Of a DNA stretch of 64,000 nt, positions 22,822 through 45,807 are shown piece after piece. How positions within the stretch are numbered: position 1 is the first letter of the stretch; every line of letters starts with the position of its first letter. Made by a program: the position numbers and the translations under genes. The notes under the pieces are model-generated. The model was not told the origin of the DNA and ran no database searches. It saw only the letters and a program-made list of their open reading frames with translations. Source of the DNA: Clostridia bacterium. GTDB lineage: Bacteria; Bacillota; Clostridia; UBA1381; UBA9506. The stretch covers positions 62,001 through 126,000 of the forward strand of contig JAFQAZ010000001.1 in the NCBI GenBank assembly GCA_017416855.1, in the 5' to 3' direction.

Positions 22822-23781
22822 ATGTCAACCAACGAATTAAAAACAGTGAAGAAGCCGATGACATTGCGGTTTTCAAAACAAAAAAAGAGACTGATAGATA
22901 ATGCTCAGCTACTCACCTTGGCAATGCCTGCTATGATTTTTCTTTTTATTTTCTGTTACATACCTATGTTTGGTATCATCATAGCATTTAAAGATTTTAA
23001 ACCAATATTGGGTGTTTTCGATAGTCCGTGGAATGGCTTTAAAAATTTTGAGTTTTTCTTTATGTCTCAGGACTTTTTCCGTATCGTGCGGAATACCGTT
23101 GGTTATGCTTTGATTTTCATTGCTCTTAAAATTGTGTTGGGTGTTGCCATTGCATTAATGCTCAACGAGGTAAGAAGCAGAAAAGCTTTGAAATATTATC
23201 AAACTACGATGATTTTACCTCACTTCCTTTCTTGGGTTGTTGTGGGTTATGTTTCATACATTCTGCTGAAACCCTCCTCTGGTATGCTGAATCAAATGAT
23301 TCGCTTCTTTGGCGGTGAAGGTATTGACTGGTATTCTGAGCCAAATGTATGGCCTGTTATTTTGCCTATTGTAAACTCCTGGAAGCATATTGGTATGGAC
23401 TCTATTATGTTCTATGCAGCTTTGATGGGGTTAGATGCTGAAGTGTATGAAGCTGCTACTATTGATGGTGCCACCAAATGGCAACAAACAATGAAGATTT
23501 CCATTCCTCTTCTGGCACCCATTATTTGTATCATTGGTATTTTGGCGATGGGTAGCGTGTTCAGAGGGGACTTCGGTTTGTTCTATCAGATTCCAAGAAA
23601 CGTCGGCGCGCTGTATCCGACAACAGATGTTATTGATACCTATGTAATGCGTGGCGTTATGGATGGCAGCATAGGCCCGACTGCTGCGGTTGGTTTGGTG
23701 CAGTCTGTGGTTGGATTAATTATGGTTGTGGGAACCAATTTGGTGGTTAAGAAGTTGGATCCTGATAGTTCGTTGTTCTAG
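22822..23781 (+). CDS. lplB: ABC sugar transporter permease, LplB type
   Basis: This 319-residue inner-membrane protein belongs to the MalF-like LplB/YtcP class used for complex oligosaccharides. About six helices are visible, and the cytoplasmic EAA loop (YEAATIDGATKWQQTMKISIPLLAP) contacts the ATPase. It pairs with the next permease and with the binding protein at 29891. It is the first gene behind the promoter at 22728. No ATPase gene is present in the locus, so a shared MsmX-type ATPase is expected elsewhere. Confidence 0.93.
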   Translation: MSTNELKTVKKPMTLRFSKQKKRLIDNAQLLTLAMPAMIFLFIFCYIPMFGIIIAFKDFKPILGVFDSPWNGFKNFEFFFMSQDFFRIVRNTVGYALIFIALKIVLGVAIALMLNEVRSRKALKYYQTTMILPHFLSWVVVGYVSYILLKPSSGMLNQMIRFFGGEGIDWYSEPNVWPVILPIVNSWKHIGMDSIMFYAALMGLDAEVYEAATIDGATKWQQTMKISIPLLAPIICIIGILAMGSVFRGDFGLFYQIPRNVGALYPTTDVIDTYVMRGVMDGSIGPTAAVGLVQSVVGLIMVVGTNLVVKKLDPDSSLF

Positions 23782-23794
23782 GGGAGGCATTAAA

Positions 23795-24691
23795 ATGAAG
23801 AAACGGTTTTCTTGGGGAAAAGTTTTAATTCACGTATTTTTTATATTATTTTCGTTAACGTTCATTTTGCCGATCTTGTCAGTACTTTCGGTTTCACTGA
23901 CGGATGAATCGGTGATTACACAAGCAGGCTACAGTTTAATTCCGAAAAAGTTCAGCACTTTAGCGTATTCCTATATTTTCAGCAATCCGAAGAAGATTAT
24001 TGATGGTTATGCAGTTACAATTTTTATTGCAAGCGTGGGAACGGTGTTGAGTTTACTTGTTACAACTTCTGTTGCTTATGCACTATCCAGAAAAAACTTT
24101 GCATACAGAAAATTTGTTACCTATTATATTTTCTTTACCATGCTGTTTTCCGGAGGTCTGGTCCCTTCTTATATTTTGATTACACAGTACCTTCACTTAA
24201 CCAATAACATTTGGGTGTATATTCTTCCCGGCACAATAAGTGCCTGGAATGTTATCGTGGTGAGAACCTTTATGCAGGGCATTCCCGATGCGTTGGTGGA
24301 ATCGGCGAAGATTGACGGAGCCAGTGAATATCGTATTTATTTGCAGATTATTATTCCGCTGTCCAAACCGGTATTGGCCACCATCGGTCTTTTAACTATG
24401 TTGGCAAACTGGAATAGCTGGCAACCTTCCATGCTCTACATTAGACCCACTCATTCTCATTTATACACATTGCAATATCTGTTGCAGAGAATGTTGCTGG
24501 ATGCACAGTTTGCACAGGATATGGCAAACCTTGCACCGGGCTCCCTCGCTATGTCTGAGGCCGTTGAAGTGCCTTCAGAGGGTATGCGTTTTGCCATGTG
24601 TGTATTGGCGGCAGGACCTATGCTGGTCGTGTTCCCCTTCTTCCAGAAGTATTTCTCCAAAGGTCTTACGGTTGGTGCCGTTAAAGGATAA
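23795..24691 (+). CDS. lplC: ABC sugar transporter permease, LplC type
   Basis: This 298-residue permease is the MalG-like partner. It has an N-terminal helix (LIHVFFILFSLTFILPILSVLSVSLTD), further helices, and the EAA loop VESAKIDGASEYRIYLQIIIPLSKP. The end (PFFQKYFSKGLTVGAVKG) is the standard family C-terminus. I start at ATG 23795 after GGGGAGG, 13 bases past lplB; the longer frame overlaps lplB without a ribosome-binding site. Confidence 0.93.
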   Translation: MKKRFSWGKVLIHVFFILFSLTFILPILSVLSVSLTDESVITQAGYSLIPKKFSTLAYSYIFSNPKKIIDGYAVTIFIASVGTVLSLLVTTSVAYALSRKNFAYRKFVTYYIFFTMLFSGGLVPSYILITQYLHLTNNIWVYILPGTISAWNVIVVRTFMQGIPDALVESAKIDGASEYRIYLQIIIPLSKPVLATIGLLTMLANWNSWQPSMLYIRPTHSHLYTLQYLLQRMLLDAQFAQDMANLAPGSLAMSEAVEVPSEGMRFAMCVLAAGPMLVVFPFFQKYFSKGLTVGAVKG

Positions 24692-24734
24692 ATTATTTTT
24701 ATTATATACATCATGCATTTAAAGGAGTGAGAAA

Positions 24735-26426
24735 ATGAAAAAAATAATTAGTGTTTTCATTTTAACCACAATGTTGTTTTCTACTATGATTAGCTTTGCG
24801 ACAACAAGTGGCGGCGTTAGCCACAGTGCAATTGTAGGCGAAACCAAAATAATGGTAACTGGCCAGGCGACTGAAGCAGCAAACCTTCCTATGACCTTAA
24901 AGGTGTCAGATGGTGGCACACTGGTGCATGTGGATCAGATGATTATGGATAGTGAGGGTAATTTTTCTTTTGAATTCCCGGTTTTGCCTGCTGAAGTAAA
25001 TTATACATATACCTTGCGTCATCCACGTGTGGCAAATGTGGTAAGCGGTAGTTTCTATATTTCTACTGTGGGGGATAAACAAAGCGTACTGGCAAATTTC
25101 AGAAGACTGAATGTAGGTCCAAATGTAGCGGATAGAGTCAGCGTGATGACTGCATTTTTAACCACACCGCTACATGCTCAGGTGTTAAACCTCAATCTGG
25201 ATGCATTTAATGCACTGAATAATCCGTCAGCAGTTTCTGAGGGAATGTGTGACGCCTTTAACGGTCTGACTACTTTGGATTTAATTTCAGCTAAATTTGC
25301 GGAATTAATCATTGCACAAAACAATGCTGAAAATAAAAAAGCTCAGCAGGAAGCTCTGATTCAGGATATCAACGCGGCTTCCACAGAAGATATGCTGGAT
25401 ATGATTGTAACCAATGCAGAATTTTTAGGTGCCAAAACCGAATATGGTTTTGCAAGCATTAAAGCAGCGTTTGATGATGGTGACACCGCACAGGCAGATG
25501 CCTTAAAGACTGCCTTGCAGGGCGCTGTTACACCGGAAGATTTCAATAAAGCGTTATCCGAATTTTCGGCAGTCGTTTCCTTTAATGAAGAAACCTGGGG
25601 TAAATTTGACACCCTTGAGCAATATTATGGTGAACATATCGGCAACATCTTTGCAGGCGCAAGAGATGCTCTGACCGATCTGGAAGTAAGAACATTGCAA
25701 GAAGCTATGCAGAATGAATCCTTTGCTGATTTGAATGCGGTTAAAACCTTTATCAGCACAAAAACGGCAGCGATTATCGCATCGAGACCGCCTGTAACAC
25801 AGTATCCTGTTGGTGGTTTTGGTGGTGGTCAGCAGATGGTGCAGGGGAGCTACACACCGGAGACATCCAACAAGCCGGCAACCGGCTTTACCGATTGTGA
25901 GCATGTGGGCTGGGCAAAGGAAAGCATTGAACGTTTAAAGAGTCTGGGCATTGTTAATGGCAAGAGCGCAACAAGCTTCAGCCCCGATGACAAAACAACC
26001 CGTGAAGAATTTTTGAAAATGCTTCTCTTAGCGTGTGATATCAAGCCTGATGCAAGCGGAGAAACAGGCTTTTCTGATGTGGCTGCCGGCAGTTGGTGTG
26101 CTCCTTACATTAAAAAAGCCATTGATCTTGGCATTGTAACCGGCATTTCCGAAACAGACTTTGGTGTAGGTCGTGAAATTACCCGTCAGGATATGGCGGT
26201 GCTTTGCTACAGAATGTTAACAAAGCTGAACAAGCAGCCCATAGCAGAGGGTAACGCATCCTTTGCTGATGCGTCGAGTATTGCAGGGTATGCTACAGAA
26301 GCCATCGATGCAATGCAGAGTGCAGGTGTGATTAAGGGTATGGATGACAATCGCTTTGAACCTTCATTCTCTGCTACAAGAGCACAAACGGCCGTCATCA
26401 TTGACCGTTTGATGAACTTGCAATAA
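24735..26426 (+). CDS. Secreted protein with three C-terminal SLH domains
   Basis: The 563-residue product has a signal peptide (1-23), a beta-sandwich domain (about 30-115), a helical region (about 125-350) containing an INAASTEDMLDMI-type repeat, a Gly/Gln linker, and three SLH repeats (about 385-560) beginning FTDCEHVGWAKESI, FSDVAAGSWCAPYI and FADASSIAGYATEAI. SLH domains bind pyruvylated wall polymer, so the protein is probably displayed on the S-layer. No catalytic motif is seen. It lies between the permeases and the binding protein, suggesting a part in glycan capture. The first two-thirds share a layout with the protein at 42574. Confidence 0.88.
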   Translation: MKKIISVFILTTMLFSTMISFATTSGGVSHSAIVGETKIMVTGQATEAANLPMTLKVSDGGTLVHVDQMIMDSEGNFSFEFPVLPAEVNYTYTLRHPRVANVVSGSFYISTVGDKQSVLANFRRLNVGPNVADRVSVMTAFLTTPLHAQVLNLNLDAFNALNNPSAVSEGMCDAFNGLTTLDLISAKFAELIIAQNNAENKKAQQEALIQDINAASTEDMLDMIVTNAEFLGAKTEYGFASIKAAFDDGDTAQADALKTALQGAVTPEDFNKALSEFSAVVSFNEETWGKFDTLEQYYGEHIGNIFAGARDALTDLEVRTLQEAMQNESFADLNAVKTFISTKTAAIIASRPPVTQYPVGGFGGGQQMVQGSYTPETSNKPATGFTDCEHVGWAKESIERLKSLGIVNGKSATSFSPDDKTTREEFLKMLLLACDIKPDASGETGFSDVAAGSWCAPYIKKAIDLGIVTGISETDFGVGREITRQDMAVLCYRMLTKLNKQPIAEGNASFADASSIAGYATEAIDAMQSAGVIKGMDDNRFEPSFSATRAQTAVIIDRLMNLQ

Positions 26427-26440
26427 AGGAGGGACTTAAT

Positions 26441-29400
26441 ATGAGGAAACGAATACTGGCACTTTTGTTAGCGCTGTCCTGCGTCGTTAGCGGAACGGCA
26501 ATTGTTCTGGCGGCCGATGGCGCCGGCGCCGAAGCGGCCGTTCCGGCAGAAACAGTAAAAAGAACCTATTTAATGGATTTGGATTTCGGTAACCTCACTA
26601 TGGAGGATGTAACGAAAGACAAACATATTAACATCGTCAACAATGCAAGTAAGGTTGATATTTATGATTACGCTCAGGTAAACCCCGAATCAGATATGGG
26701 TCCGGTTCTGGCCTTTGACTATGACGGTGTAGATCCGGTTTACACCTGTATGCCATACTTTGACTACACATTTGATGAAGCGGTTCGCAGAGGTAAGCTG
26801 ACCATTGAATTTCTCTTCTTTTCAACCTACATCAGAGATACTCAGTATACCTACAGAGCAGATGCCACCAGTGCCACCTTATCCAATCTCTATTCCGACC
26901 GTGGTATCCGAGTTATCAAGGGAACGGTTGAAAATGCTGACCGTCCGCCTATGGTAATGCCTGCCGGCAGATGGACTACCCTGAAAACCGTTTTTGATTT
27001 TGATAATCGCGTATTTTCCATTTATATGGATGATAAATGTGCGCTTGAAAATGAACCGATGACTGATGCTATGCAGCAGGTTGCCGGGTTTAGACAGACC
27101 CAGTACCCAAACAGTAGTGGCGGTGTGGAAACGCATACATATTTCAAGAGCATGAAGGCCTATGTGGAAGAAGAAGTGAAGGCAGAAACGGGTTCTGCGG
27201 CAGATTCTGTTTATAGTGCGCCGGAAGCTTTGTTAAAGGGTTTAGTTGTGATTAGTGATATGGAAGGCTATTCTGCCAACAAAACGATCACCCGTGGTCG
27301 ATTTGCACAGATTTTAACCCGCAGTATGGGTATGAAGGATGAAAATATTGATGCCTATAATGGTGGCGAATTCAACGACGTAGGCTCCGATAATATGTAT
27401 AAACGTCCTATCGGGTTCTTGAATGCTATGGGTTGGGTTCATTCAGCTGATGGCAATTTTTATCCCGATAACACCATCACCTTTGAACAGGCAGCCAAGT
27501 GGCTTTGTTTCTACGTTGGCCGCGAAACTCTGGCGGAGAAAAAAGGCGGATGGCCCCAAGGTTACATCACCGTTCTTTCCGAATTGGGTGTGTTAAAGGG
27601 TCTGAACCTGCGCAACAATACCGTGTTAACAGAAGGTGAAACGGTTGTGTTGCTGGCTCGCTTACTGGAATGCGATATTTTCAAACCCGTATCCTACGGT
27701 GACAAGGTTATTCTTGAAAACGATAAGAGTTACACAGCGCTGGAAGAGTATTTTGAATGCCGCAGGATTGAAGGTGTGGTAACGGCCACTAACAAAACCG
27801 GTCTGGCGACATCTCAGAGTGCAGTTGGCATTCGTCAGGTGCAGATTGACAGCACGAATTACACCTTCACAACAGCCCCTGATGAAAATGTGATTGGCCG
27901 ACGTGTAACAGCATATGTAAAAGATGCTGATACCATCGTTCATTTAATTGTTGACAATAAGAGAAATAAAGAAGTTGTGTTAAATGATGACGAAATTTTA
28001 AATGTTGTCAGCAAAACCTCTACCTTTGAGGTAGAATATGTAAACGAAAGAGATAAAACAGATAAAGAAGTTCTTCCTAAGGATGCGTATTATCTGTATA
28101 ATGGAATCGCTTATAGCGACGTATTGCCCAGCTCTTACTTAAAGCCGGCATCCGGTGATATCACCTTGATTGATAATAATAATGACGGTCGCTATGAGGT
28201 TGTTGCCATTAACGATTATACCTATGTAGCCGTTAAAAGCCTTGATACTGTTTCAGAGAAGATTTACGGTCAGAATGGTGAAGTTCTTATCATAAATGAA
28301 AAATCCCGTCTGTGGGATGGCGAACAGGAAATTGAACTGGGCGGCCTTGTTGAATGGGATATGCTGCAGGTTGCAAGAAATATGCGTGGCGATTTGGATA
28401 TTCGACTGTTAACCGGTTGGGAAAATGGTGTTTTGGAATCTATTGACACCACAGAGCTAACAATTAAAGGTACTGTGTATCCGATTTCTCCGGCACTCAG
28501 CGTCTCCGACAGACAGAGTCTGGTTGTAGGCGAAACCCTGACGGTTTACTTTGATGCAAGAGGCAGAGTTTGTGCAGTGAACAAAGAGGCAATCGGTTCT
28601 GCGCAGGTCGGCTACATTATTGGTCTTGCACGTGAAGGTGCATTTGAAAATATTTTAGTTAAAATGTTTAATCAGAGCGGCAAGGTAGATGTGTACACTC
28701 TAAGCAAAAACTTCCGTTACAACGGTCAGAAACTGTCTCAGATCACGACCGTTCCCACCATTGATATGACAACAGGTACCATTACCAATGTGCTTGAAAA
28801 CATCAGTAGCCTTTCTGATTACGAAAAGCTTTCCAAGCTGTTAAAGGTATCCGCTTTTGAACGTCAGGTTGAGGCGAGAGATGCTGCAAGCATTGCGACG
28901 TTGATTGGCAACGGCAAAATCGTAAATGATACGGTTCGTCAGCTCATTACTTACCATAACGGTGCAGAAGGCACCATCAGTGCAATAAACACCGATTACT
29001 TCACAGTTGACAGAGCCCACGACTTTGAGGGTAAAGGCGACCACGGCGAAGTTTCAAAATTCTATCCTGCCGGACGGCTCATTCCTCACTTTGCAGTTGT
29101 GCCTGCCGATGTTGTCAGCTTCGTTGTTCCTCCGGAAGGTATTGCATCAACTGATGAAGATTATCGTTTGATGCAGTGGAACAGAGAGCTTACGGGTTTT
29201 GACTTTGAGCTTTATAATATGTCTCAGGCTATGAAACCGGAAGCAATTTTAGTTTACGATACCTATAAAGAAGAAATTGATGCAAACGCATCTGATATCT
29301 TAATTGTGAATAAGGTCTATAAAGCAGCTAATGCTGATGGTAATCCCGTAAATGGCTTTGATGCTTATTCCGGTGGCAAACTGGTTTCCTACATAACAGA

Positions 29401-29836
29401 GGATGAAGAAATAGGTAAGGACTTAAAAGTCGGCGACATTATTCAGATGAATATGAATAAAGACGTGGTTACTGCCATTAACACATTGGCAACAGCTGCC
29501 GGAGCGAAGACCCAGAATTTTATTTTGAATACAGGTCAAAGAGATAAGGCTTCAGAATATCATTTTGGTGTACTGTCCGGTGTCGAAAAAGATGCACTGG
29601 CTATTTGCGGTCAAAATACAGGCACGGCTGATGCACCGGTTCTGGGTATGAGTTATCCCTTCACCATCTCTTCCAAAACAAGAGTATATCTCTTTGATAT
29701 AACCACTAACAAACTGCACAAGGGTACTGTAGCAGACATTGCAAGTTTTGCCTATGATACGAATCCTGCAGCTCGTGTGCTGATCAGAGCCAGAGTTACA
29801 TCGCTGGAAGATGTGTTCATCTACTTTGAATCGTAA
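26441..29836 (+). CDS. Large S-layer-type protein with LamG-like and SLH-like regions
   Basis: The 1131-residue product has a signal peptide (1-25), a concanavalin/LamG-like domain (about 40-235), an SLH-like region (about 260-420: TITRGRFAQILTRSMGM, then GWVHSADGNFYPDNTITFEQAAKWL), and about 700 residues of beta-rich repeats. One segment, LIDNNNDGRYEVVAINDYTY, is a pattern common in clostridial surface proteins and may bind calcium; it is not a dockerin. It follows the previous SLH gene by 14 bases. No enzyme motif is seen; glycan binding or scaffolding is inferred. Confidence 0.8.
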   Translation: MRKRILALLLALSCVVSGTAIVLAADGAGAEAAVPAETVKRTYLMDLDFGNLTMEDVTKDKHINIVNNASKVDIYDYAQVNPESDMGPVLAFDYDGVDPVYTCMPYFDYTFDEAVRRGKLTIEFLFFSTYIRDTQYTYRADATSATLSNLYSDRGIRVIKGTVENADRPPMVMPAGRWTTLKTVFDFDNRVFSIYMDDKCALENEPMTDAMQQVAGFRQTQYPNSSGGVETHTYFKSMKAYVEEEVKAETGSAADSVYSAPEALLKGLVVISDMEGYSANKTITRGRFAQILTRSMGMKDENIDAYNGGEFNDVGSDNMYKRPIGFLNAMGWVHSADGNFYPDNTITFEQAAKWLCFYVGRETLAEKKGGWPQGYITVLSELGVLKGLNLRNNTVLTEGETVVLLARLLECDIFKPVSYGDKVILENDKSYTALEEYFECRRIEGVVTATNKTGLATSQSAVGIRQVQIDSTNYTFTTAPDENVIGRRVTAYVKDADTIVHLIVDNKRNKEVVLNDDEILNVVSKTSTFEVEYVNERDKTDKEVLPKDAYYLYNGIAYSDVLPSSYLKPASGDITLIDNNNDGRYEVVAINDYTYVAVKSLDTVSEKIYGQNGEVLIINEKSRLWDGEQEIELGGLVEWDMLQVARNMRGDLDIRLLTGWENGVLESIDTTELTIKGTVYPISPALSVSDRQSLVVGETLTVYFDARGRVCAVNKEAIGSAQVGYIIGLAREGAFENILVKMFNQSGKVDVYTLSKNFRYNGQKLSQITTVPTIDMTTGTITNVLENISSLSDYEKLSKLLKVSAFERQVEARDAASIATLIGNGKIVNDTVRQLITYHNGAEGTISAINTDYFTVDRAHDFEGKGDHGEVSKFYPAGRLIPHFAVVPADVVSFVVPPEGIASTDEDYRLMQWNRELTGFDFELYNMSQAMKPEAILVYDTYKEEIDANASDILIVNKVYKAANADGNPVNGFDAYSGGKLVSYITEDEEIGKDLKVGDIIQMNMNKDVVTAINTLATAAGAKTQNFILNTGQRDKASEYHFGVLSGVEKDALAICGQNTGTADAPVLGMSYPFTISSKTRVYLFDITTNKLHKGTVADIASFAYDTNPAARVLIRARVTSLEDVFIYFES

Positions 29837-29890
29837 AATATTGGGCGCAATAAGAATTAAAATAAATCAACGATACAGGAGGTATGTAAA

Positions 29891-31426
29891 ATGAGAAAAA
29901 GAGGATTACTGGTTTTATTGTGCGTTTTTCTCATGGTCGGAATGCTCAGTGGTTGCGGCGGTAAAGGCGGCAATACTGATAGCTCTGTGAGAACTGATGG
30001 TCAGGAAATCACCCTTAAGTGGATGCTGGCCGGCGGTGCTTACTCCCCCTCCGACGAAGCAGAGGTTCGCGCATTGTACAATGAAAAGCTTGCAGAAGCA
30101 CTGCCGGGCGTTCAAATTGATTTTGAAGTTGTTCCCTTTGGTGATTATGCACAGCGCCTGCAGCTTGCTTTAACAGCAAGAGAAGAACTTGATTTAATCT
30201 GGTCCGGCTATGTTATTTCTTATGTTAACGAAGCCGCCAACGGTTCATTTATGGCGATGGATGACCTGCTTAAAGAATACGGCAAAGATATGCTGGAAGA
30301 AATTCCTGACTGGGCTTGGGAACAGCAGAGAGTTAACGGCAAAATTTATTCTGTACCCAATATGCAGGAAGTTACCAACGAAGGTAAAGCGCTGTTCTTC
30401 CAGACAGAGCAGGGTGCGAAATATATGGATAGAGAAAAACTCACCAAGATTTTAAACTCTTCTCCCACTGTTACCCAGGAGGGTTGGGATGCTATTGGTG
30501 AATATCTTGAAGTGTTAAAGCAGAACGGTGAACTGAAGAAGGGCGTTTCTACTGCTTCTGTCCCCAGCTTTTTGAGCAACACCAACACCGAAGCCATTGT
30601 GGATAACTTTGTTATCGTTCGTGGTGCCGATGAAATTAAGGTAGAACACCTTTTTGAACGTCCTGAAAAGCAGCTGTCCTTTGACGTGATGGCAGACTGG
30701 TATAAAAAAGGCTACATTGTAGAAGATATTGCCAGCATGGAATCTGCCAGCCAGTATGAATTCAAAGAAGACGGCAACGTGCTCTGGGCACATAACTACT
30801 TTAAAGATATTGAAATTGGTCAGCGTAACAACGGCCGTCCCTTCGTGGATGTTATCCCCATAAAGGGTCTGCCGCCTTACATCAGCATGGGTAACGCAGC
30901 AACCAGTACATCCATTGCGGCATATTCAACCAATGCAATTCCTGCTATGGAAGTATTGGATTTAATGAACACTAAAAAGGGCACCGACCTGTTTAACCTA
31001 CTGGTATATGGCGTGGAAGGCAAGCACTACGAAATGAAGAACAACAAAGTTTCTTACATTCGTGATGCGCAGCAGAAACCCCTTTACAAGCTGGAACGCT
31101 GGGTTGTTGGTAACACCTTTAACGGCCACATGCTGGAAAGCGATCCTGATGGCTGGTTTGAATATCTGCTGAACGATGTGCAGGGTCCCACCGCTGAAAC
31201 TTCCCCCTTGCTTGGCTTTAAGCCCGATGTATCGAAGCTCTCTACGGAACTCACACACATCCGTGCGGTTGAAGGCGAGTTCTCCAGAAGTTTAAACGAT
31301 GGTGCACTGCCCGACCACAGAGCGACCTATGAAGAAATGATGGGTAAGTTAAAAACAGCAGGCCTTGAGAAGGTTAAAGCAGAACTGCAGTCTCAGATTG
31401 ATGCATTCTTAGCAGCTAAGAAATAA
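29891..31426 (+). CDS. lplA: Extracellular solute-binding lipoprotein, LplA type
   Basis: This 511-residue binding protein has lipobox LSGC (C22), an N-terminal solute-binding domain (TLKWMLAGGAYSPSDEAEVRALYNEKLAEALPGVQIDFEVVPFGDYAQRL) and a C-terminal DUF3502-like extension. It delivers oligosaccharide to the LplB/LplC permeases from the outer face of the membrane. It is separated from the permeases by the two SLH genes, which is unusual. A hairpin immediately downstream may stabilise its mRNA and raise its level over neighbours. Confidence 0.92.
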   Translation: MRKRGLLVLLCVFLMVGMLSGCGGKGGNTDSSVRTDGQEITLKWMLAGGAYSPSDEAEVRALYNEKLAEALPGVQIDFEVVPFGDYAQRLQLALTAREELDLIWSGYVISYVNEAANGSFMAMDDLLKEYGKDMLEEIPDWAWEQQRVNGKIYSVPNMQEVTNEGKALFFQTEQGAKYMDREKLTKILNSSPTVTQEGWDAIGEYLEVLKQNGELKKGVSTASVPSFLSNTNTEAIVDNFVIVRGADEIKVEHLFERPEKQLSFDVMADWYKKGYIVEDIASMESASQYEFKEDGNVLWAHNYFKDIEIGQRNNGRPFVDVIPIKGLPPYISMGNAATSTSIAAYSTNAIPAMEVLDLMNTKKGTDLFNLLVYGVEGKHYEMKNNKVSYIRDAQQKPLYKLERWVVGNTFNGHMLESDPDGWFEYLLNDVQGPTAETSPLLGFKPDVSKLSTELTHIRAVEGEFSRSLNDGALPDHRATYEEMMGKLKTAGLEKVKAELQSQIDAFLAAKK

Positions 31427-31452
31427 TCGGCAAAGTGAAAGTTAAAAAAATG

Positions 31453-31500: not shown

Positions 31501-31501
31501 T

Positions 31502-31530: not shown

Positions 31531-31565
31531 AATAGCGAAAAAATAAAAAAGAAAGAAGGAAAAAT

Positions 31566-35792: not shown

Positions 35793-35826
35793 TCAGAATG
35801 ACAAACATTCTGTAACCGGTTTGTTT

Positions 35827-35982: not shown

Positions 35983-38373
35983 ATGATTACATTGATTAAA
36001 AACAAGCAATCGGCTTATTGCATCGCCATTCCTCAGAACGCCAGCAATGTTGAAAAAACAGTTGCGGGTGAACTGGCGGAATATGTAGACAAAGTTTACG
36101 ATGTACTGCTTCCTGTTGTGTCTGAAAGTTCCGTTTCCGGCAAGGCTTTTTATGTAGGGCACACGGAATATGCCAAAAACAATGGTTTTACAGCAGATTC
36201 TTGCGAAAACTGGATGATTTGTGTACATAATGAAAATGTAATACTGCACGGTGGTTTAACCAACACAGACAGAGGTGTTGGCTATGCTGTGTATCACTTT
36301 TTGGAAGATATTGTGGGCGTTCGCTGGTGGACCTGGTTTGAAGAATATGTCCCCAATGAGGACACTTTGGAACTGGCGGATGACTTTGCATCAAGCGGCA
36401 CCCCTGTGTTTGAATACAGAAATGTAATTGATACATTCCAGCCGGTTAACTATGAATATATTTTAAGAAACCGTATGAACGCCTGGTCCGATATCACCAA
36501 TATCGAACAGATTGCGCATAAGGATTTTGTAAACCGCGGTGGCGTTAAATATTTTGGACCGCCTCATCCTTCTCACACCATTCCCAGACTGGTGCTGATT
36601 GATGAACTCTATGATGAACATCCTGATTGGTTTGCCTATAATGCACTGCTGGGCTACAGACCCAAAACACCTCAGCACGGCACCAACTATTGTCATACTA
36701 ATGAAGGCTTAATCCGCTATGTGGCCGATAAAGTGATTGCCAATATTGATGAAAACATTAAACGCTCCAAAGAGCTGGGCATTGAGCCGGCAAGCTTCTT
36801 CTCTGTATCTGTAGCTGACTCTCAGGGTCATTGCCAGTGCGAAAAATGTGCGCCCCTGCATGAAAAGGCAGGCCGTTCCGGCTATAACCTGTATTTAGCA
36901 AACGAAGTGGCTAAGCTGGTGGCAGAAAAACATCCTGAAGTGTTAATTCACACCCTGATTTACTGGGATTATATTGAACCGCCGAAGGATGACACCGTAC
37001 CCGAACCCAACATTCTGGTTCACTTTGCTGACTTAAAGGCAGACCTGATGCGCGACATTCACCATCCTGTAAATAAAGATTGTCTCCGTCTGCTAGACAC
37101 TTGGTCTAAAGCTTGCGAAAAAAATAATTCCACTATGTATATCTGGGATTATTTCCTGCAGGAATACCCCAACACCAGTATGCCTTATTTCTTAAAGCTG
37201 GCTCACAACTTTCGGTATTTCCATGAAAAAGGCGGTAAGGGTTGCTTTATTGAACATGAAATTAGCCATGTCAGCGACTTCTTCTCTATGACACAGTGGC
37301 TCTTAGCCCGTGTAATGGAAGATCCTTATCAGGATTATGAAGCCTTAAAAGAAGACTTCATTGTTCGCTACTATGGTGATGCAGCTCCCCAAGTGAGACA
37401 GTATATCAAACTGCTGGAACAGAATCTTGCAGATAACGGTTGCCGTACCATGGTGTTTGAACAGGCTGTTTTGGGTAACTATATGAACTATGTCACAGTT
37501 CGTGACGGCATTAAGATTCTTTCAGAAGCCGAACAAGCCGTTGCAAATGACGAAACACGCTTAAAGAGAATCCGTCTTCTGCAGAGCTGTTTGTACCGTA
37601 CCTATGCATTGCGTTATGATGACTTTGAAAAGATTGCCGCAAGCCGTGGCGAAACCCTGCCCATCAGCAAGGAAGATGCCGCAAATCTGGTGATTGAATA
37701 TGTTAAAGTGAATGTTGAAGTGTACGGCAATGAAAAATATCCTGAACATACGGAGAGTATTGCGAAAAGGATTGAAGAAGAAATTCACCACATGAAACGT
37801 CTGGTAATCAAACCGAAGCCGGTTGTGCCCGTGCCCGAAGAACTGAAACAGTTTGGCGAAGAGAATATTTATACCGTTTCCGGTGTTGGCTTCCACAGTA
37901 TGGCAGGTTGCGGTATGTTGCCTGACGGTAAACCCGTTGGTGAATATATGGAAGTAGACGATGAAGTTGGTCGTGAGGTGTTCAGAATTGCACCGGATGA
38001 AATGCATCCCAAGAGAAAGCTGATGTATATTTCCAGCCCGAAAGATGCTGAACTGCCCAATCCTGTTGTGTTCTTCACCGAAGGAGATAACGAGAACTTC
38101 CACACCGAGCTCTTCTTTGAAGATTTGGTACCGGATGAATATCACCTCTATCATTTAGGCGACATCTCCAATGTAAGTGCACAGACTTCCACGATGTTCC
38201 GCTTATTACATTACATTGGCTACAGCTTAGGTATCAGCCACCTGTATGAGGTAATACCTTCTGATAAATACGGCATTTACATCAATATGAAGGTAACAGG
38301 CCCCGATTACGGCGGTAATGAAAATGATCCTAACGGTCTGTATATCGACGCCGTACACATTGTAAAGAAATAA
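35983..38373 (+). CDS. DUF4838 protein, putative glycoside hydrolase
   Basis: The 796-residue protein has no signal peptide, so it is probably cytoplasmic. The N-terminal part (about 1-125) looks like the small alpha/beta domain that precedes GH20 and GH67 catalytic barrels. The middle (about 130-480) is a DUF4838-type barrel with RNRMNAW, the cysteine cluster C284/C286/C289 after SVADSQGH, and WDYFLQEYPN. A helical and then beta-rich C-terminal region follows. DUF4838 proteins occur in polysaccharide loci, but their substrate is generally unknown. AAAGGAG precedes the ATG. Confidence 0.85.
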   Translation: MITLIKNKQSAYCIAIPQNASNVEKTVAGELAEYVDKVYDVLLPVVSESSVSGKAFYVGHTEYAKNNGFTADSCENWMICVHNENVILHGGLTNTDRGVGYAVYHFLEDIVGVRWWTWFEEYVPNEDTLELADDFASSGTPVFEYRNVIDTFQPVNYEYILRNRMNAWSDITNIEQIAHKDFVNRGGVKYFGPPHPSHTIPRLVLIDELYDEHPDWFAYNALLGYRPKTPQHGTNYCHTNEGLIRYVADKVIANIDENIKRSKELGIEPASFFSVSVADSQGHCQCEKCAPLHEKAGRSGYNLYLANEVAKLVAEKHPEVLIHTLIYWDYIEPPKDDTVPEPNILVHFADLKADLMRDIHHPVNKDCLRLLDTWSKACEKNNSTMYIWDYFLQEYPNTSMPYFLKLAHNFRYFHEKGGKGCFIEHEISHVSDFFSMTQWLLARVMEDPYQDYEALKEDFIVRYYGDAAPQVRQYIKLLEQNLADNGCRTMVFEQAVLGNYMNYVTVRDGIKILSEAEQAVANDETRLKRIRLLQSCLYRTYALRYDDFEKIAASRGETLPISKEDAANLVIEYVKVNVEVYGNEKYPEHTESIAKRIEEEIHHMKRLVIKPKPVVPVPEELKQFGEENIYTVSGVGFHSMAGCGMLPDGKPVGEYMEVDDEVGREVFRIAPDEMHPKRKLMYISSPKDAELPNPVVFFTEGDNENFHTELFFEDLVPDEYHLYHLGDISNVSAQTSTMFRLLHYIGYSLGISHLYEVIPSDKYGIYINMKVTGPDYGGNENDPNGLYIDAVHIVKK

Positions 38374-38417
38374 GGGAATGTAAAAAAGTTCAGACCGCTT
38401 TGATATAAAAATTAAGT

Positions 38418-38457
38418 GTTTTGTTGGGGCGGAGGCTCATATCCGCCCCAACAAAAC
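38418..38457 (+). other. 16-bp perfect hairpin after the DUF4838 gene
   Basis: GTTTTGTTGGGGCGGA at 38418-38433 pairs with 38442-38457 across an 8-base loop. It is very stable but lacks a T-run on the + strand. It could be a partial terminator or an mRNA-stabilising element in the 207-base gap. Confidence 0.65.
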
Positions 38458-38580
38458 AGTGTCACTTTTGATGCTACTTTCTTTGTAGATGGAGAAAAAA
38501 TATTTGCTTTGTCTGTAAAGAAAATAGTATTATAAAAATATAAAAACTATCTAATAAAAGAACAATAAGGAGTTGATTGT

Positions 38581-41500
38581 ATGAAGAAAGGTCGTTTTGT
38601 AGCACTTCTTCTCATCGTGCAAATTCTGATGGGGCTTATGTATGTACCAGCCTTTGCCGCAACGGCAACGCCGGAATTTTTTGCATACAGAATTTTAAGC
38701 CGTTCTACGGTTTTACAGGCAGATAATGCCATTGCCTATGCGTTTAACGAACGTGCTGATCTTTCTGCTACCAAACCATATTTTGAAGGGGATACCGCTA
38801 TGGTGCCCGTTCGGTTCTTGGCAGAAAGTTTTAATACTGAATATAGCTGGGAGTCTGCAAAGGGTGGTACCTTTGTGGTTGAACAGCGCAACTGTGCAGT
38901 GATTCGTATCACGGCCGGCAAGCCCATTACAGCAGATGGTGTGGCGATTGATTCGGCAGCTCTTCCTGTCAACAAAAACGGCACCCTTTATGTGCCGGCT
39001 GATGCCTTTGCCAAGGCAATGCGCATTGAATATAAAGAAAACAAAGAATATGGTCTTATGTTCTTCAGCCGTTGGGATGAAAGCGTAAGACATTCTAAGG
39101 TTGACTACAAAGAGCATTTACTTCCTTATTTTGAGAAAAAATATTTAGAAAACGAAGAAACATATCTTTATGTTTCTCCAAAAGGTAACGATAAAAACGA
39201 CGGTACCATTGATAAGCCTTTTAAAACCATTGAACGTGCTCAGAAGGCCGTTCGAGAGCTGACAGAAAATCAGAAGGGAGACATCGTTGTATACTTCCGC
39301 GGCGGTACCTATCCTGTGAGCAAAACCGTTGTCTTTACAGAAACTGATTCCGGCCGGAACGGTTATAAAGTAAGATATACCGCTTACGAAGATGAAAAAC
39401 CAATTTTCGATGGTGCAAAGCAGGTAACCGGCTGGGACATTTATGCCGGCAACATTTATGTGGCCGATGTAAAAGGCGAGAAGCCCATTCATATGGTTTA
39501 TGAAAACGGCAATACGACCTTAAAAGCAAGACATCCCAATGCCAATCCCAAGGAGCCCCGTGATGGCTTTATGAAAACAACCGGTGGCAACGGCGATGTG
39601 AAGCTGAGCCTTTCCTGGAATAAGGGCGAAGTGCCCTATGTTAAAAATACAGAAGGTCTTGAAGTCTTTGTATGGCCCGGCGGCCCCAGCGGTATCTGGA
39701 TGTGGCACAGCCAGCTGATTCCCGTTGTGAAGTTTGATAATGCAAACAGCATTCTGCAACTGGAAAGGACCGGTATTTACGATTTTGGTGCAGGCTCAAA
39801 ATTCTATATGATGGGTGCCATGGAATTTTTAGATGCACCGGGCGAGTTCTATCATGATACTAAGGCCGGCAAGCTCTATTACATTCCCAATGACTATTCC
39901 ATGAGCGGTAAGCGCATATCCATACCTATGGTCGATGATGTTTTCTCCTTAAAGGGTGCATCTTTGACAGAAACCGTACAGAACATTGAATTTTCCGGTT
40001 TAGAAATCCGCAATACAAAACGCAGCACTAACGTGGCTTATTGTGCCAGTGTGTTTGTAGATGCTACCACCGGTAACGGTTTTAAATTTGAAAATGCTGA
40101 AAACTGTGCGGTTATTGACTGCCATATTCACGACGTGGGCGGTAACGGTATTTTTGCCGCAGGATTTAATTCTAATTTGCAGATAGACTGTAACTATGTC
40201 CATAGTGCCGGTCTGGGCGCCATATACTTTAATATTGAAGAAGTATTCCAAAGCGCTAACAATGTGATCTCTAATAATCTGGTGCACACCACCAGCCGTT
40301 TGGTTGGTCAGACCCAGGCGATTCAGATTTCCGGCGGTAGTGATAACTTTATCCGCCACAACAGAGTGGATGATGCCATCAGAACCGGCATACAGATGAG
40401 CGGCCGAACCGGCTTTAACTATGTAGGCTATAACGATTTGTCCGACTGTAATGCGTCTGCAGAAGATACGGGTATGATGTATTTCAGTAATACCATGGAG
40501 GGTACCGGTTCTACGGTGCATAATAACTTTATGCACGATTCCAACGCCGGTTACAGCCATTGGAGTGCTTATTATTCCGACATTGTGTGTGACAGCATGC
40601 GTTGTCAGAACAACATTGTAACCAGAATGGCGACAGAAGGCCCCGATGACCGCGGTACTTACATCAATAGTTATTTTGCCAAGGGTCGTGACTTTAAGTT
40701 CATTAACAACATTGCGGCTCATGCCGGTGTGGATCCCACTCAGGGTTCTTATCATTTGTATGACAGTACAGGTACCAAGAGTGAAGGCTACATCATTGAA
40801 CATAACATTTCTTATGAACATGGCCCCAATCCCTATGATGCACCTCACTTGACGGAAAAAACCGTGGCAAGAGCAGATAACAATCTGTACTATGATTCGG
40901 ATGCCACAGAATATACTTTAACGCACACGCCGGTGGCAACCTTTGAGGAATGGAAGAAGTATGGCGCCGGTACTTACGATCAGAACTCCCTCACCGAAGA
41001 TCCGAAGTTTATGAATTCTTTAGCAGATGACTTCCGTCTGCGGTATGATTCTCCGGCTAAAACGATTGGTATTAAGACCATTAAGCAGTCTACCATTGGT
41101 TTGAATAAAGACTTTCAATATGTGAACGATGAACCTATCTGGCGTCTCTTTATTAACCGTGAAGGCTATACTGATACGCTTTCTGCTATGAACTTAACCA
41201 GCGGTCAGCAGGTGAACCTGAATGTTATCGGCAAAACTTACAGCAGCTTTGTGAAAAAGCCGGAAAACATCACCTTTACAAGTGATGCTCCCGAAATTGC
41301 CTATGTGGATGCAAACGGTGTGGTAACAGCTGTTAGTGCCGGTAAGGCAAAAATTACTGCAACGGTAGAAGATAAAGGTCAAACCTCCAGCATTGACATT
41401 TATGCGTTTGTAGATGATAAACTGGTAGAACTGGGCTTTGACCAAAAATTCTACATTTTCAAAACAGGGGAATTAAACTCTGTTATGCCGATTGGTAAAA

Positions 41501-42558
41501 CACAGTTCGGCCAGATTTTAGTAGGGGAGGAATTTGAAGATATCAAGTTCTCCTTACAGAATCCTGAGACGGCTTACTTAGATGCCGGAGGTAATGTCCG
41601 TTTTGATCAAGAAGCGGCCAACGAATTAACGGCAACAGTCACTCTTAACGGCGAGAGCATCTCTGCAACTGTTCCTGTGAGTGGTGTGAATGCTTACATT
41701 AACAACGTTAAACTGAAGATTGCATCTAATGTTGTAGAAGAAGGTGCTGAACTCGCTTGTCAGGTGATGGGTTACAGCGAGGGCGGCGAAGAAATTCCTG
41801 TAGATGACTTTGCAATCACCTTTACATCCCTAGATGAAACCAAAGCACAGTTTGTAGGTCAGAACGCTTCTTGCGCAAACATCAAGGGTATTGCATCCGG
41901 TAAGGTACCGGTTAAGGTAACAGTAAATTGGCTGGGTAAAGAATTATCCACCTCAACCAATATGATGGTAACAGCACCCAGTAAGTTCAAGAATGATTGG
42001 AAGGTTTCCAACTACTTAGGTTCTGCCGGTTATGCAGTTGAAGATGATACAGGTATCAGTATCTTCTCCTCCGGTGAAGATATTTATTATAAGGAAGACG
42101 AATTTACTTTCGTTTCCCGTGAGGTAAGTGGCGATATGACCATTGAGGCAACCGTACGCGATGTTGAAGCAGCGCCTACCTCCATTGCCGGTACCGGTAT
42201 TATGTTCCGTCAGGAAGATACCGCAGGGGCTTATAACGTAAACATCCGTTACATCCCCAGCAACAAGGGTGTTATTATGACCTGGCGTTCACCGGATTTC
42301 CCGAATTCAACCGATACCTCCGTATCAAGAGAAATTTCTAAGGAATTTGTATATCACGATCCTGTGAAACTGAAATTAGAGAAGAAGGGCGATATCATTG
42401 TTGCCTCCTGTATGGACGGAAATGGAACATGGCATGTTGTAAAAGAAGTGAATGTTCCGATTACCGGAACTTATATGGCCGGTGCTACCTCCTTCTCCGG
42501 TGACCCTGAAAATGTACAGTGGTTCCATTCCAGAGTGGAAGATGTTAAAATTTACTAA
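38581..42558 (+). CDS. Secreted multidomain right-handed beta-helix protein (GH141-like core)
   Basis: The 1325-residue product has a signal peptide (1-26) and a copper-amine-oxidase-N-like stalk domain (about 40-165: MVPVRFLAESFNTEYSW, LPVNKNGTLYVPADAFAKAM). A right-handed beta-helix (about 195-800) follows, opening LYVSPKGNDKNDGTIDKPF and containing FLDAPGEFYHDTKAGKLYYIP. The rest has Big_2-like Ig domains and a DUF1349/LamG-like C-terminus. The opening and DAPGEFYHD patterns resemble GH141-type enzymes, so it may cut a complex glycan outside the cell; this is inference. It is 16 bases upstream of its paralogue at 42574. Confidence 0.82.
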   Translation: MKKGRFVALLLIVQILMGLMYVPAFAATATPEFFAYRILSRSTVLQADNAIAYAFNERADLSATKPYFEGDTAMVPVRFLAESFNTEYSWESAKGGTFVVEQRNCAVIRITAGKPITADGVAIDSAALPVNKNGTLYVPADAFAKAMRIEYKENKEYGLMFFSRWDESVRHSKVDYKEHLLPYFEKKYLENEETYLYVSPKGNDKNDGTIDKPFKTIERAQKAVRELTENQKGDIVVYFRGGTYPVSKTVVFTETDSGRNGYKVRYTAYEDEKPIFDGAKQVTGWDIYAGNIYVADVKGEKPIHMVYENGNTTLKARHPNANPKEPRDGFMKTTGGNGDVKLSLSWNKGEVPYVKNTEGLEVFVWPGGPSGIWMWHSQLIPVVKFDNANSILQLERTGIYDFGAGSKFYMMGAMEFLDAPGEFYHDTKAGKLYYIPNDYSMSGKRISIPMVDDVFSLKGASLTETVQNIEFSGLEIRNTKRSTNVAYCASVFVDATTGNGFKFENAENCAVIDCHIHDVGGNGIFAAGFNSNLQIDCNYVHSAGLGAIYFNIEEVFQSANNVISNNLVHTTSRLVGQTQAIQISGGSDNFIRHNRVDDAIRTGIQMSGRTGFNYVGYNDLSDCNASAEDTGMMYFSNTMEGTGSTVHNNFMHDSNAGYSHWSAYYSDIVCDSMRCQNNIVTRMATEGPDDRGTYINSYFAKGRDFKFINNIAAHAGVDPTQGSYHLYDSTGTKSEGYIIEHNISYEHGPNPYDAPHLTEKTVARADNNLYYDSDATEYTLTHTPVATFEEWKKYGAGTYDQNSLTEDPKFMNSLADDFRLRYDSPAKTIGIKTIKQSTIGLNKDFQYVNDEPIWRLFINREGYTDTLSAMNLTSGQQVNLNVIGKTYSSFVKKPENITFTSDAPEIAYVDANGVVTAVSAGKAKITATVEDKGQTSSIDIYAFVDDKLVELGFDQKFYIFKTGELNSVMPIGKTQFGQILVGEEFEDIKFSLQNPETAYLDAGGNVRFDQEAANELTATVTLNGESISATVPVSGVNAYINNVKLKIASNVVEEGAELACQVMGYSEGGEEIPVDDFAITFTSLDETKAQFVGQNASCANIKGIASGKVPVKVTVNWLGKELSTSTNMMVTAPSKFKNDWKVSNYLGSAGYAVEDDTGISIFSSGEDIYYKEDEFTFVSREVSGDMTIEATVRDVEAAPTSIAGTGIMFRQEDTAGAYNVNIRYIPSNKGVIMTWRSPDFPNSTDTSVSREISKEFVYHDPVKLKLEKKGDIIVASCMDGNGTWHVVKEVNVPITGTYMAGATSFSGDPENVQWFHSRVEDVKIY

Positions 42559-42573
42559 GGGAGCTGAAGATTA

Positions 42574-45500
42574 ATGGCAGCGACAAGCAAGCGATTGCTT
42601 TTTCTCGTATTGAGTTTTGTGTTATTCTTGCAGGTGGGTGTGCTTTCTGTTTCGGCAGAAAGCAACATCTGCACCGTCATAGATAATGCGGAACAATTAT
42701 CAACAACGGTAAACAGCGAAGGACTGACTATATTTGGATATTTTGGTGAGAAAAGCGGATATCCCGTATATGTGACGGTGAAGGACGCAGATGAGGGATC
42801 CCTTATCTTTCTGGAGCAGGTCATGACGGGCGATGGGGGACATTATTCTCTCTTAATTCCCTATGAAACCAATATGCTGGGCAAGAATTATAAGGTTACG
42901 GTAGGCTGTGTTACAGATAACAAGCTCTATGAAAAAACACTGGCCTTCTTGCCCGGTCAGGAGCCTGAAGCATTGTTGCAGATGGTGAATCAGGCAACCA
43001 CTGAGGACGAAATGGCAGATTTCATCAGCAGTTACGGTTTAGATGTTGGTATTTCCCTATCTGCATTGGAAGAAATTGATGCACCTGAAGCAGTATATGC
43101 GGCTTTGACCGGTGAGTCCTATGCCACAATGGAAGCCTTCCGCAAAAGCTTTAACAAGGCATTGGCTGTACAGAAGCAGAAGAAGGCCAATGTGTTTGAA
43201 ATTCATGTGGCACCAAACGGTAGCGACACCAACAAGGCGACAGCGGAAAGTCCGTTAGCCACTATTGAGGCTGCTATGCAGTATGCCGATTATTTAATGG
43301 CATTGGGATCGGAAGATAACTTTGAAATTTTGCTCCACGGTGGAGAATATAAAGTTACTAAAGAAATTCTCATTGAGAAAAAGCCTGAACGCAAGAATCA
43401 TATTACCATCAAGAATTTCAATGATGAACAGCCGGTATTAAACGGCAGCAGTCAGGCAATTACCGGTTGGGAACAGTATTCGGGTAATATTTACCGTGCA
43501 AAAGTGCCAATGGGTCTGGATATTAAGGTTCTTTTTGAGAATAATAATATGCTGACTATGGCTCGCTATCCCAATAAGCAGGCCTCTTATGAGAATATGT
43601 ACAGCGAATTTGTGCAGGCAGACAGTTATAATAATTCTCTGACTCAGTTTACGTACAGAGCAGGCACTTTGCCCCAGATGGCAGATATGTCCAATTTGGA
43701 AGTGGGTATGTTTGCCGGTGGCAGTGACGGCTACTTTATGTGGGGTATGAATGTGCTTCCTGTAAGTAGCATCGACACCGCCAGTCGGTTAGTAACCCTT
43801 CAGGAGCCTGCGTCCTATAATATTGGTACGGACAGCTACTATTTCTGGCAGGGTGCATTAGAGCTGCTGGATGCCCCAGGTGAATTCTATCACAATCCTG
43901 AGGTAGGCTATATCTATTATTATCCCACCGATGGCATGATGGAGGGTAAGACTATTACGTATCCGGTGATAGACAATATGATTACCATTGGCAACAGTGA
44001 TGGAAGTACCATTTCGGATATTACTATCGATGGCATTGGCATTTGCGGCACAAACCGCAGCGCAAAAATGTATTCACACAGTAAATCAAATGAATATGGT
44101 AACGGTGTTTTAATTTTAAATGCTGACAATGTGGCTGTTAAAAACTGCGAAATTCATGCTGTTGGCGGTAATGGTATCACCTCTAATCAAAATCTGAAGA
44201 ATAGTGTTATTTCCAGTAACCACATATATGATGGCGGACAAAACGGTATTATTCTATATGGCTTTGATTATGTGAAAGTTGACAATCTGATTGATAATAA
44301 CTATGTTCATCATATGTCGAAAATTTTACACTCTTCCAGCGGTATTAGCATTTCCGGTGTGGACTATGCAGACGGCAATGTGATTTCTCACAACCGCATT
44401 CATGACCTTAAGCGTATTGGTATTAATGTAGGCGGTTCTACAGAGAAATACTTAACCGGTGATAACGTCATTGAATATAATGACATTTCAGCTTGTTGTA
44501 ACGGATCAGATGACTCCGGCCTGATTTATCTTATGCTCACACTCGGCACAAACATTGTGCGGAATAACTATCTCCATGATGGATATTCTAAAGGAAGCTA
44601 CCGTGCGATTTATCCTGATGAAGCCTCTCATAACACCATTATAGAAGGCAATCTGATAACTCGTATGCAAGGTAACATCTATCACCTGATTCAGGCAAAG
44701 GGTGATGATATACAGATTAAGAATAACTATTTTATGGATAGCCCCACGGCCTATAATAGCATTGTCAGCTACATGAGATGGGAGTCCGGTCAGCATACTG
44801 AACGTATGAAGATTGAAAATAACATTTTCTATAATAGCGGCAAAACGATGTATTATCACTATTTTATGGATAAGAGCACAAAGAGAATAGAGAACTCCGA
44901 TCAGAATCTGTTCTATAATGCAACATCTTCATATATTCAATTTAAGCATTCTACCACAACTTCCAGTGCTTCGACAAACTATAGCAACCTGTCGAAGTAT
45001 CAGGAAAATGGGTATGAATTGAATTCTGTAATGGGTAATCCGAATTTTATCAGCAATACAGGTGGCGATGTTCGTTATGCTTATGGCTCGCTGGCGGAAG
45101 GTTTGGGCATTAAGCCTCTGGAGCTGGATAAAATGGGTCTTAGAGAAAGCTTTAAGTATGTAGACGGTGACAACAAGCCCTATAACCTCTTTGTAAGAGA
45201 TGCAAAGAAGGCCGGCAACGCTGGTTATATTCAGGTTGGTGTTGGCGAACAAGTTCAGCTTGCAAGTCTGGTTCGTACTGCCGGAGGTTTTGTGATTCCG
45301 GCGGATAGCGTAACTGTTACCTATACGTTAGGCGCTCAAAACGGCAATGTGGTTTTAGGGGCCGATGGTGTTTTAACAGGTCTTAAGGTCGGTGTTGTCC
45401 GCGTAATGGCAACAGCTGAAACGGCAACTGGTACTGTGACCAGCGAGTTTGATATTATGGTGTCTTCGGAAGGTTCGGCAAATGCCGTTGTTAGTCTGGA

Positions 45501-45807
45501 TGGCATGACGGTTAAAAATCAGGCAGAACAGTTGTTGACTCAGGTGGAAAGCGGTGTTTTAACCGTTAGTGTGGCGGTTACCCCAAAACAAAACACTGCA
45601 GCAAAACTATTTGTGGCTTATACGGATGCAAATGGCAGATTGATTACTTCTGGTGTTTCAGAGGATGCAACGTTGACGAAAAATACACCATCTACACTTG
45701 TTGGCAGTATTACAATCCCCGAAGAGACAACAGGTGAACTGTATGTATATATCTGGGACGGTATTGCAACCTTGAAACCCTTATATTCAAAAATTACTGT
45801 TTTTTAA
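42574..45807 (+). CDS. Secreted right-handed beta-helix protein, paralogue of the preceding gene
   Basis: The 1077-residue product has a signal peptide (1-30), a beta-sandwich plus helical module (about 35-200, with MVNQATTEDEMADFI) also seen in the SLH protein at 24735, then a beta-helix (about 208-800). That helix opens IHVAPNGSDTNKATAESPL and contains LLDAPGEFYHNPEVGYIYYYP. A Big_2-like domain and a C-terminal domain ending YIWDGIATLKPLYSKITVF follow. It is probably an extracellular lyase or hydrolase; the reaction is unknown. It lacks SLH repeats, so the C-terminal domain may help surface retention. Confidence 0.82.
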   Translation: MAATSKRLLFLVLSFVLFLQVGVLSVSAESNICTVIDNAEQLSTTVNSEGLTIFGYFGEKSGYPVYVTVKDADEGSLIFLEQVMTGDGGHYSLLIPYETNMLGKNYKVTVGCVTDNKLYEKTLAFLPGQEPEALLQMVNQATTEDEMADFISSYGLDVGISLSALEEIDAPEAVYAALTGESYATMEAFRKSFNKALAVQKQKKANVFEIHVAPNGSDTNKATAESPLATIEAAMQYADYLMALGSEDNFEILLHGGEYKVTKEILIEKKPERKNHITIKNFNDEQPVLNGSSQAITGWEQYSGNIYRAKVPMGLDIKVLFENNNMLTMARYPNKQASYENMYSEFVQADSYNNSLTQFTYRAGTLPQMADMSNLEVGMFAGGSDGYFMWGMNVLPVSSIDTASRLVTLQEPASYNIGTDSYYFWQGALELLDAPGEFYHNPEVGYIYYYPTDGMMEGKTITYPVIDNMITIGNSDGSTISDITIDGIGICGTNRSAKMYSHSKSNEYGNGVLILNADNVAVKNCEIHAVGGNGITSNQNLKNSVISSNHIYDGGQNGIILYGFDYVKVDNLIDNNYVHHMSKILHSSSGISISGVDYADGNVISHNRIHDLKRIGINVGGSTEKYLTGDNVIEYNDISACCNGSDDSGLIYLMLTLGTNIVRNNYLHDGYSKGSYRAIYPDEASHNTIIEGNLITRMQGNIYHLIQAKGDDIQIKNNYFMDSPTAYNSIVSYMRWESGQHTERMKIENNIFYNSGKTMYYHYFMDKSTKRIENSDQNLFYNATSSYIQFKHSTTTSSASTNYSNLSKYQENGYELNSVMGNPNFISNTGGDVRYAYGSLAEGLGIKPLELDKMGLRESFKYVDGDNKPYNLFVRDAKKAGNAGYIQVGVGEQVQLASLVRTAGGFVIPADSVTVTYTLGAQNGNVVLGADGVLTGLKVGVVRVMATAETATGTVTSEFDIMVSSEGSANAVVSLDGMTVKNQAEQLLTQVESGVLTVSVAVTPKQNTAAKLFVAYTDANGRLITSGVSEDATLTKNTPSTLVGSITIPEETTGELYVYIWDGIATLKPLYSKITVF

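Follow-up and report, generated by a model that had tools for sequence, protein, structure and literature searches.

Why should two genes encoding S-layer homology (SLH) proteins lie within the operon of an oligosaccharide importer, between the genes of its permeases and that of its binding protein? This question is raised by a 64,000-nucleotide stretch of the genome of an uncultured Clostridia bacterium of the gut, from the lineage UBA1381; UBA9506 (assembly GCA_017416855.1, contig JAFQAZ010000001.1, positions 62,001 to 126,000), referred to below as the window. All locus coordinates are window positions, and gene calls are named after the start positions of their open reading frames. An earlier note on this DNA had proposed that the two SLH proteins, 24735 and 26441 (here SLHa and SLHb), build a surface complex for glycan capture and processing together with an ATP-binding cassette (ABC) importer and further secreted proteins; the reading frames that it named are all present on the + strand where it had placed them. 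We found that the co-location of the SLH genes with the importer is real, recurrent and statistically strong, and that it is part of a wider pattern: across Clostridia, a module of two surface-protein genes accompanies glycan-import loci.

Recurrence of the SLHa-SLHb pair and its linkage to importers

SLHa (24735..26426, + strand) is composed of a signal peptide, an immunoglobulin (Ig)-like and helical ectodomain, and three C-terminal SLH repeats (PF00395, 3.1e-30). SLHb (26441..29836, + strand) comprises a signal peptide, an N-terminal insert of about 220 aa, a degenerate SLH trimer (aa 253-414, assigned in an AlphaFold2 model), and a beta-rich core (aa ~415-1131).

The window's own genome (2.37 Mb, 32 contigs) contains about 31 clusters of SLH repeats, with 108 matches in all. 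Within the 32 stretches that were read in it, relatives of SLHb repeatedly adjoin an SLHa-type gene, and within each pair SLHa has its SLH repeats at the C-terminus and SLHb at the N-terminus. Altogether, 14 such pairs were found, alongside 13 clear lplC-type genes and one weak match. Ten of the 14 pairs have an lplC gene on the same strand at a distance of no more than 15 kb (random expectation 1.03, maximum of 7 in 20,000 randomisations), and, seen from the importer side, a pair is present at 10 of the 13 lplC genes. Of the lplC genes lacking one, two (C12 and C1:555) are located at contig ends, and the third (C17) has a pair 16 kb away. Away from importers, a separate site (L021, G000:C9:14517-24460) encodes a 3255-aa protein that has SLH at its N-terminus; a second SLH gene comes after it.

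Linkage to importers was also seen beyond this genome. In seven related genomes, an SLHb core was encoded on the same strand within 16 kb at 25 of 44 lplC genes, and on the opposite strand at none. The exact lplB-lplC-SLHa-SLHb-lplA order, which the earlier note had suggested looking for, was found again in another genus of the family (L093), and the same five genes occur in shuffled orders elsewhere: the pair is placed between lplB and lplC on contig C28 of the own genome (L039) and in genome G007 (L116), and other arrangements were seen at L041, L079, L103, L230 and L256.

Examination of 76 long core proteins revealed an SLHa gene directly upstream on the same strand in 39 cases, with gaps mostly of -4 to +35 bp, and downstream in six. 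Parts of an LplABC importer were encoded on the same strand at 29 of the 45 paired loci vs 4 of the 31 unpaired core loci (Fisher p = 7e-6), both counts being lower bounds because the stretches span 20 kb. The possibility that such SLH genes occur mostly without the transporter is therefore not borne out, either in the window's own genome or over the 45 paired loci. The same pair geometry was observed in other families of the class (most of 20 loci), as well as in two records not labelled as metagenome-assembled genomes (MAGs), i.e., Acetivibrio sp. MSJd-27 (26 core matches), a named strain that was apparently isolated, and Lachnospiraceae bacterium MD329 (11).

Moreover, the two partners diverge together. 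Distance matrices of SLHa and SLHb were correlated in Mantel tests within the genomes G000 (r 0.40, p 0.003), G010 (r 0.41, p 0.015) and G015 (r 0.67, p 0.001), in keeping with inheritance of each pair as a unit.

Anchoring domains, the SLHb core and its probable housekeeping paralogue

The earlier note had called SLHb an SLH protein, and this holds even though the domain is degenerate. The sequence of 26441 itself gave no SLH match at the Pfam threshold; the call is right because 7 of the 10 SLHb relatives tested pass the Pfam SLH cut-off and because residues 253-414 of the AlphaFold2 model of 26441 superpose in structural alignment on the SLH trimer of Bacillus anthracis Sap (6bt4; Z 17.5, 2.7 A over 152 residues). 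Both proteins hence contain the trimer of SLH-type S-layer proteins, SLHa according to Pfam and SLHb, with a reduced set of arginines, according to the predicted structure.

In known structures, a conserved SLH arginine (in an ITRAE-type motif) contacts the pyruvylated wall polymer. This residue is found in all three repeats (R/R/R) in 40 of 40 SLHa proteins. In SLHb, it is present in repeat 1 in 35 of 40 proteins, in repeat 2 in 2 of 40 (mostly replaced by Tyr, Phe or Leu), and in repeat 3 in 17 of 40. Since the arginines are kept in all SLHa repeats and only partly in those of SLHb, SLHa looks like a strong anchor and SLHb like a weaker one, similar to an unpaired, apparently housekeeping SLHb-type protein, whose pattern is R/Y/R.

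The latter protein, of about 865 aa, was aligned from 11 genomes (43-71% identity to the first of the 11 sequences); it occurs in small genomes too and is sited away from permeases and importers. A second unpaired type has about 960 aa. The window's own genome yielded no copy of the ~865-aa type; unpaired SLHb is represented there by proteins of 966 and 997 aa. Among named records, close homologues of the housekeeping protein come mostly from ruminant-gut MAGs and include those of Ca. Ornithomonoglobus and Ca. Aphodoplasma, which suggests an order near Monoglobales. Based on its conservation, size and domain make-up, this order-wide unpaired paralogue is probably a housekeeping protein and a candidate for the principal S-layer protein.

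The core of SLHb, about 700 beta-rich residues, lies outside Pfam, and no NCBIfam family was found for SLHb. Homologues of the core were identified in 102 of 391 sampled Clostridia genomes; the paralogues are only ~20-25% identical to the window copy, yet alignable along their length. The cores were modelled as several OB/SH3-like barrels, and the housekeeping core as a string of small barrels with a mean pLDDT (predicted local distance difference test score) of 87.6. For the latter model no global structural match was obtained, and local matches of the core were to OB-type domains. Oligosaccharides and oligonucleotides are frequent ligands of OB folds, so that a core of this predicted type fits glycan binding without showing it. 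The window SLHb model also matched weakly the self-assembly domain of a V. arvi S-layer protein (9fs9; Z 7.8, 1.9 A over 66 aa); as this match was absent among the chains compared with the housekeeping core model, we treat it, like the OB matches, as a lead only. Foldseek matches to DDB1-type proteins were disregarded, their TM-scores being about 0.12 or less.

What the pair may do

We consider it probable (roughly 0.6) that each such glycan locus has a dedicated SLHa-SLHb surface pair that captures and stages glycans over the importer. SLHb would be a paralogue of the order-wide housekeeping S-layer-type protein, and SLHa its partner and firm anchor. Both would be bound to the secondary wall polymer via their SLH trimers, C-terminal in SLHa and N-terminal in SLHb, with beta-rich or Ig-like ectodomains facing outwards, and would thereby form a patch specific for the substrate, within the S-layer or on it. 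Such a patch would capture the glycan and hold it for cutting by co-encoded secreted GH141-type enzymes; the released oligosaccharides would be handed to the LplA lipoprotein and then to LplBC beneath, while a two-component system would adjust the locus, the genes of which would be transcribed and expressed together. A broader version is more tentative and, in our view, somewhat less likely than not: a widespread Clostridia system in which dozens of substrate-dedicated pairs, derived from duplicated S-layer paralogues, form glycan-specific ports or capture patches above ABC importers, as a functional equivalent of SusCD in monoderms.

Several points weigh against dedicated glycan capture over the importer. 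No LplABC part was present in the stretch read at 16 of the 45 paired loci, and reverse order or an inserted gene was noted at L018, L029, L248, L252 and L254. The association with importers is weaker in family f4, where genome G015 (L096-L107) has about 40 SLHb cores vs 6 lplC-type genes. Most of these cores adjoin GH141-type genes, which were present at 9 of the 10 pairs examined; since the pairs of G015 go mostly with GH141 enzymes and not with the LplABC type of importer, it may be glycan loci of any kind, and not LplABC in particular, that the pair accompanies. In the Mantel tests, species relatedness was controlled for by within-genome testing only. The OB-like matches are middling (Z under 8) and may reflect a common arrangement only. 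Finally, contacts of SLHa and SLHb with each other, with the SBP and with the glycan would be a step beyond the genomic association.

Among the alternatives, the best placed, although in our view unlikely, is that SLHb paralogues take the place of the main S-layer protein, either locally or under certain conditions, so that the pair would act as a gate, switching the coat and its porosity, instead of binding glycans. The paralogy of SLHb with the housekeeping S-layer-type protein and the weak 9fs9 match of the window model would agree with this, and S-layers are known to act as sieves (PMC8068369). The housekeeping core model, however, lacks the self-assembly match, and the CBM-like (carbohydrate-binding module) F5/8 C domains at the N-termini of some SLHb proteins (L015, L019) favour binding.

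We regard as somewhat less probable still that SLHa and SLHb are generic, cellulosome-like scaffolds tethering GH141 and other secreted enzymes, with linkage to importers as a by-product of the clustering of glycan loci. GH141 genes do occur at 20 of the 45 paired loci. In addition, the N-terminal Ig/helical module of the GH141-like protein 42574 (42574-43220) resembles SLHa-type ectodomains of other genomes (2e-7), although the protein has no SLH, and is possibly a docking module common to anchor and enzyme. Weak cohesin matches were also seen in two SLHa proteins (6.5e-5 and 0.0068), but they are under the curated cut-off and the genome has only one dockerin, for which reasons a cellulosomal anchoring scaffoldin was rejected; furthermore, some GH141-type enzymes in these loci have an SLH of their own.

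An accumulation of SLH proteins by duplication, which would have brought them near importers by chance or through general clustering of surface genes, might be imagined in a genome so rich in SLH repeats and large paralogue families. It is nevertheless highly improbable, being rejected by the randomisation and the strand control (25 vs 0); the fixed order, the tight gaps, the unlinked housekeeping homologues and the co-divergence of SLHa and SLHb point the same way. Lastly, SLH followed by a beta-rich C-terminus recalls OmpM, the SLH-tethered nutrient channel of diderm Firmicutes (PMC10628300), but a diderm reading is effectively refuted, as no Omp85 was found in the genome, while control genomes with outer membranes scored in the same search, and the core was modelled as small separate barrels and not as one large porin.

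The window locus and its relation to known systems

The importer in the window is of the LplABC type, as it consists of two permeases and a DUF3502 SBP; no ABC ATPase family was matched among the locus proteins scanned against Pfam. The lplB-type permease gene (22822..23781; BPD_transp_1 PF00528, 6.5e-10) and the lplC-type permease gene (23726..24691; PF00528, 4.5e-12) precede the pair, and the lplA-type lipoprotein SBP (29891..31426; PF12010, 4.1e-18), with a lipobox-like LSGCGG at its N-terminus, follows it, all on the + strand. The true start of lplC is probably the ATG at 23798 rather than the TTG at 23726. The junctions are tight, with gaps of 43 bp (lplC-SLHa), 14 bp (SLHa-SLHb) and 54 bp (SLHb-SBP), and a convincing + strand terminator was not found there. 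Rfam and tRNA scans of the window gave nothing. Just 5' of the operon, after an alanine racemase gene, there is a PemK/MazF-type toxin gene (22156-22566; PF02452, 7.5e-39), which is separated from the operon by a strong terminator-like hairpin (22595-22630).

Downstream of the SBP, the + strand continues with a secreted 1408-aa Big_5 protein (31566..35792; PF13205, 2.3e-16), a DUF4838 protein (35983..38373; PF16126, 6.1e-58), and two secreted GH141-like beta-helix proteins. The first of these (38581..42558), which also has Big domains, matched GH141_M above the cut-off (PF21231, 4.3e-7), as well as PF13229 (6.5e-9), PF02368 and PF07833. The second (42574..45807) matched PF13229 (3.9e-9) and, below the curated cut-off, PF21231 (2.6e-4). 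SLH anchors within the locus are present only on SLHa and SLHb. The previously described giant secreted proteins are recognisable in 31566, 38581 and 42574, which have hydrophobic N-termini; the DUF4838 protein lying between them has no hydrophobic segment at its N-terminus in the hydropathy check and, for this reason, is probably cytoplasmic. Nor can every ectodomain be taken as non-catalytic: 38581 and 42574, both right-handed beta-helix proteins, are probably enzymes in the light of their GH141_M matches. The gap that separates the DUF4838 gene from the first GH141-like gene contains a near-perfect 17-bp inverted repeat (38417-38458), possibly an attenuator or else a processing site at which the transcript is split.

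The extent originally given to the locus (22822-45807) was too small, as the + strand series continues to 58885 with an AraC-type response regulator (45889..46965; PF00072, PF12833), a histidine kinase (46928..48742; PF06580, PF02518) and, within 48766..58885, intracellular enzymes assigned by Pfam as GH20, heparinase II/III-like, GH94, TIM, GFO/IDH, GH3 and GH16. The structures nearest to the GH94 enzyme are cellobiose phosphorylases, and this enzyme together with the GH3, GH16, GH20, GH141-like and heparinase-like ones suggests a beta-linked, branched glycan as the substrate. A convergent - strand cluster (59072-63977) of GH10-like, RraA-like, SDR, metallo-beta-lactamase-fold and MR_MLE enolase-family genes lies beyond.

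With lplB, lplC, the SBP, the response regulator, the histidine kinase, GH20, GH94, GH3 and GH16 all encoded on the + strand, the locus is an ABC-based Gram-positive polysaccharide utilization locus (PUL). It shares with other such loci the co-directional arrangement of an ABC importer, a two-component or AraC regulator and intracellular glycoside hydrolases; to our knowledge, none of those described contains a dedicated SLH pair. Like Sap of B. anthracis, SLHb would carry an SLH trimer at its N-terminus and, after it, a beta-rich body of several domains, the difference being that here many paralogues are tied to glycan loci.

Another parallel is offered by Paenibacillus sp. JDR-2, in which an SLH-anchored xylanase works with ABC oligosaccharide import, 29 SLH proteins serve carbohydrate use, and SLH-anchored surface proteins and oligosaccharide ABC importers are linked both functionally and in their regulation (PMC4765114). 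The SLH proteins of that strain are enzymes (CBM-GH-SLH), whereas here a conserved SLH pair lacks recognised catalytic domains and the core of SLHb forms a family of its own that Pfam does not cover. OmpM likewise combines SLH with the idea of nutrient uptake, but needs an outer membrane, none being indicated here. These two were the only precedents found in the open-licence literature, which yielded nothing on such pairs, nor any paper in which Monoglobus appears together with SLH, or S-layer together with both SusC/D and SLH, and, as far as could be found there, the SLHa-SLHb two-gene unit is undescribed.

Little is understood of the way in which monoderm gut bacteria take hold of large glycans ahead of ABC import, and the pair would suggest a function for many S-layer-type proteins. 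The comparison with SusC/SusD of Bacteroidota PULs, already drawn in the earlier note, is apt for the genomic pairing and its repeated dedication to loci: in both cases, a two-gene surface pair is found about once per glycan locus, co-diverges, is accompanied by regulators and enzymes, and reaches up to tens of copies per genome. Homology is a different matter, neither claimed nor supported. No TonB-receptor Pfam match was obtained among the locus proteins, and no match to a SusD-type tetratricopeptide repeat (TPR) lipoprotein lid in SLHa, SLHb or their neighbours. Neither an outer membrane nor a TonB-dependent barrel is indicated here, both partners bear SLH and would be anchored to the wall polymer, and the importer is an ABC permease. 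SLHa-SLHb would thus be an analogue of SusCD in its organisation, not a member of that system, and, like susCD, a recurring two-gene surface marker of this kind would allow glycan-use loci to be found automatically in uncultured Clostridia.

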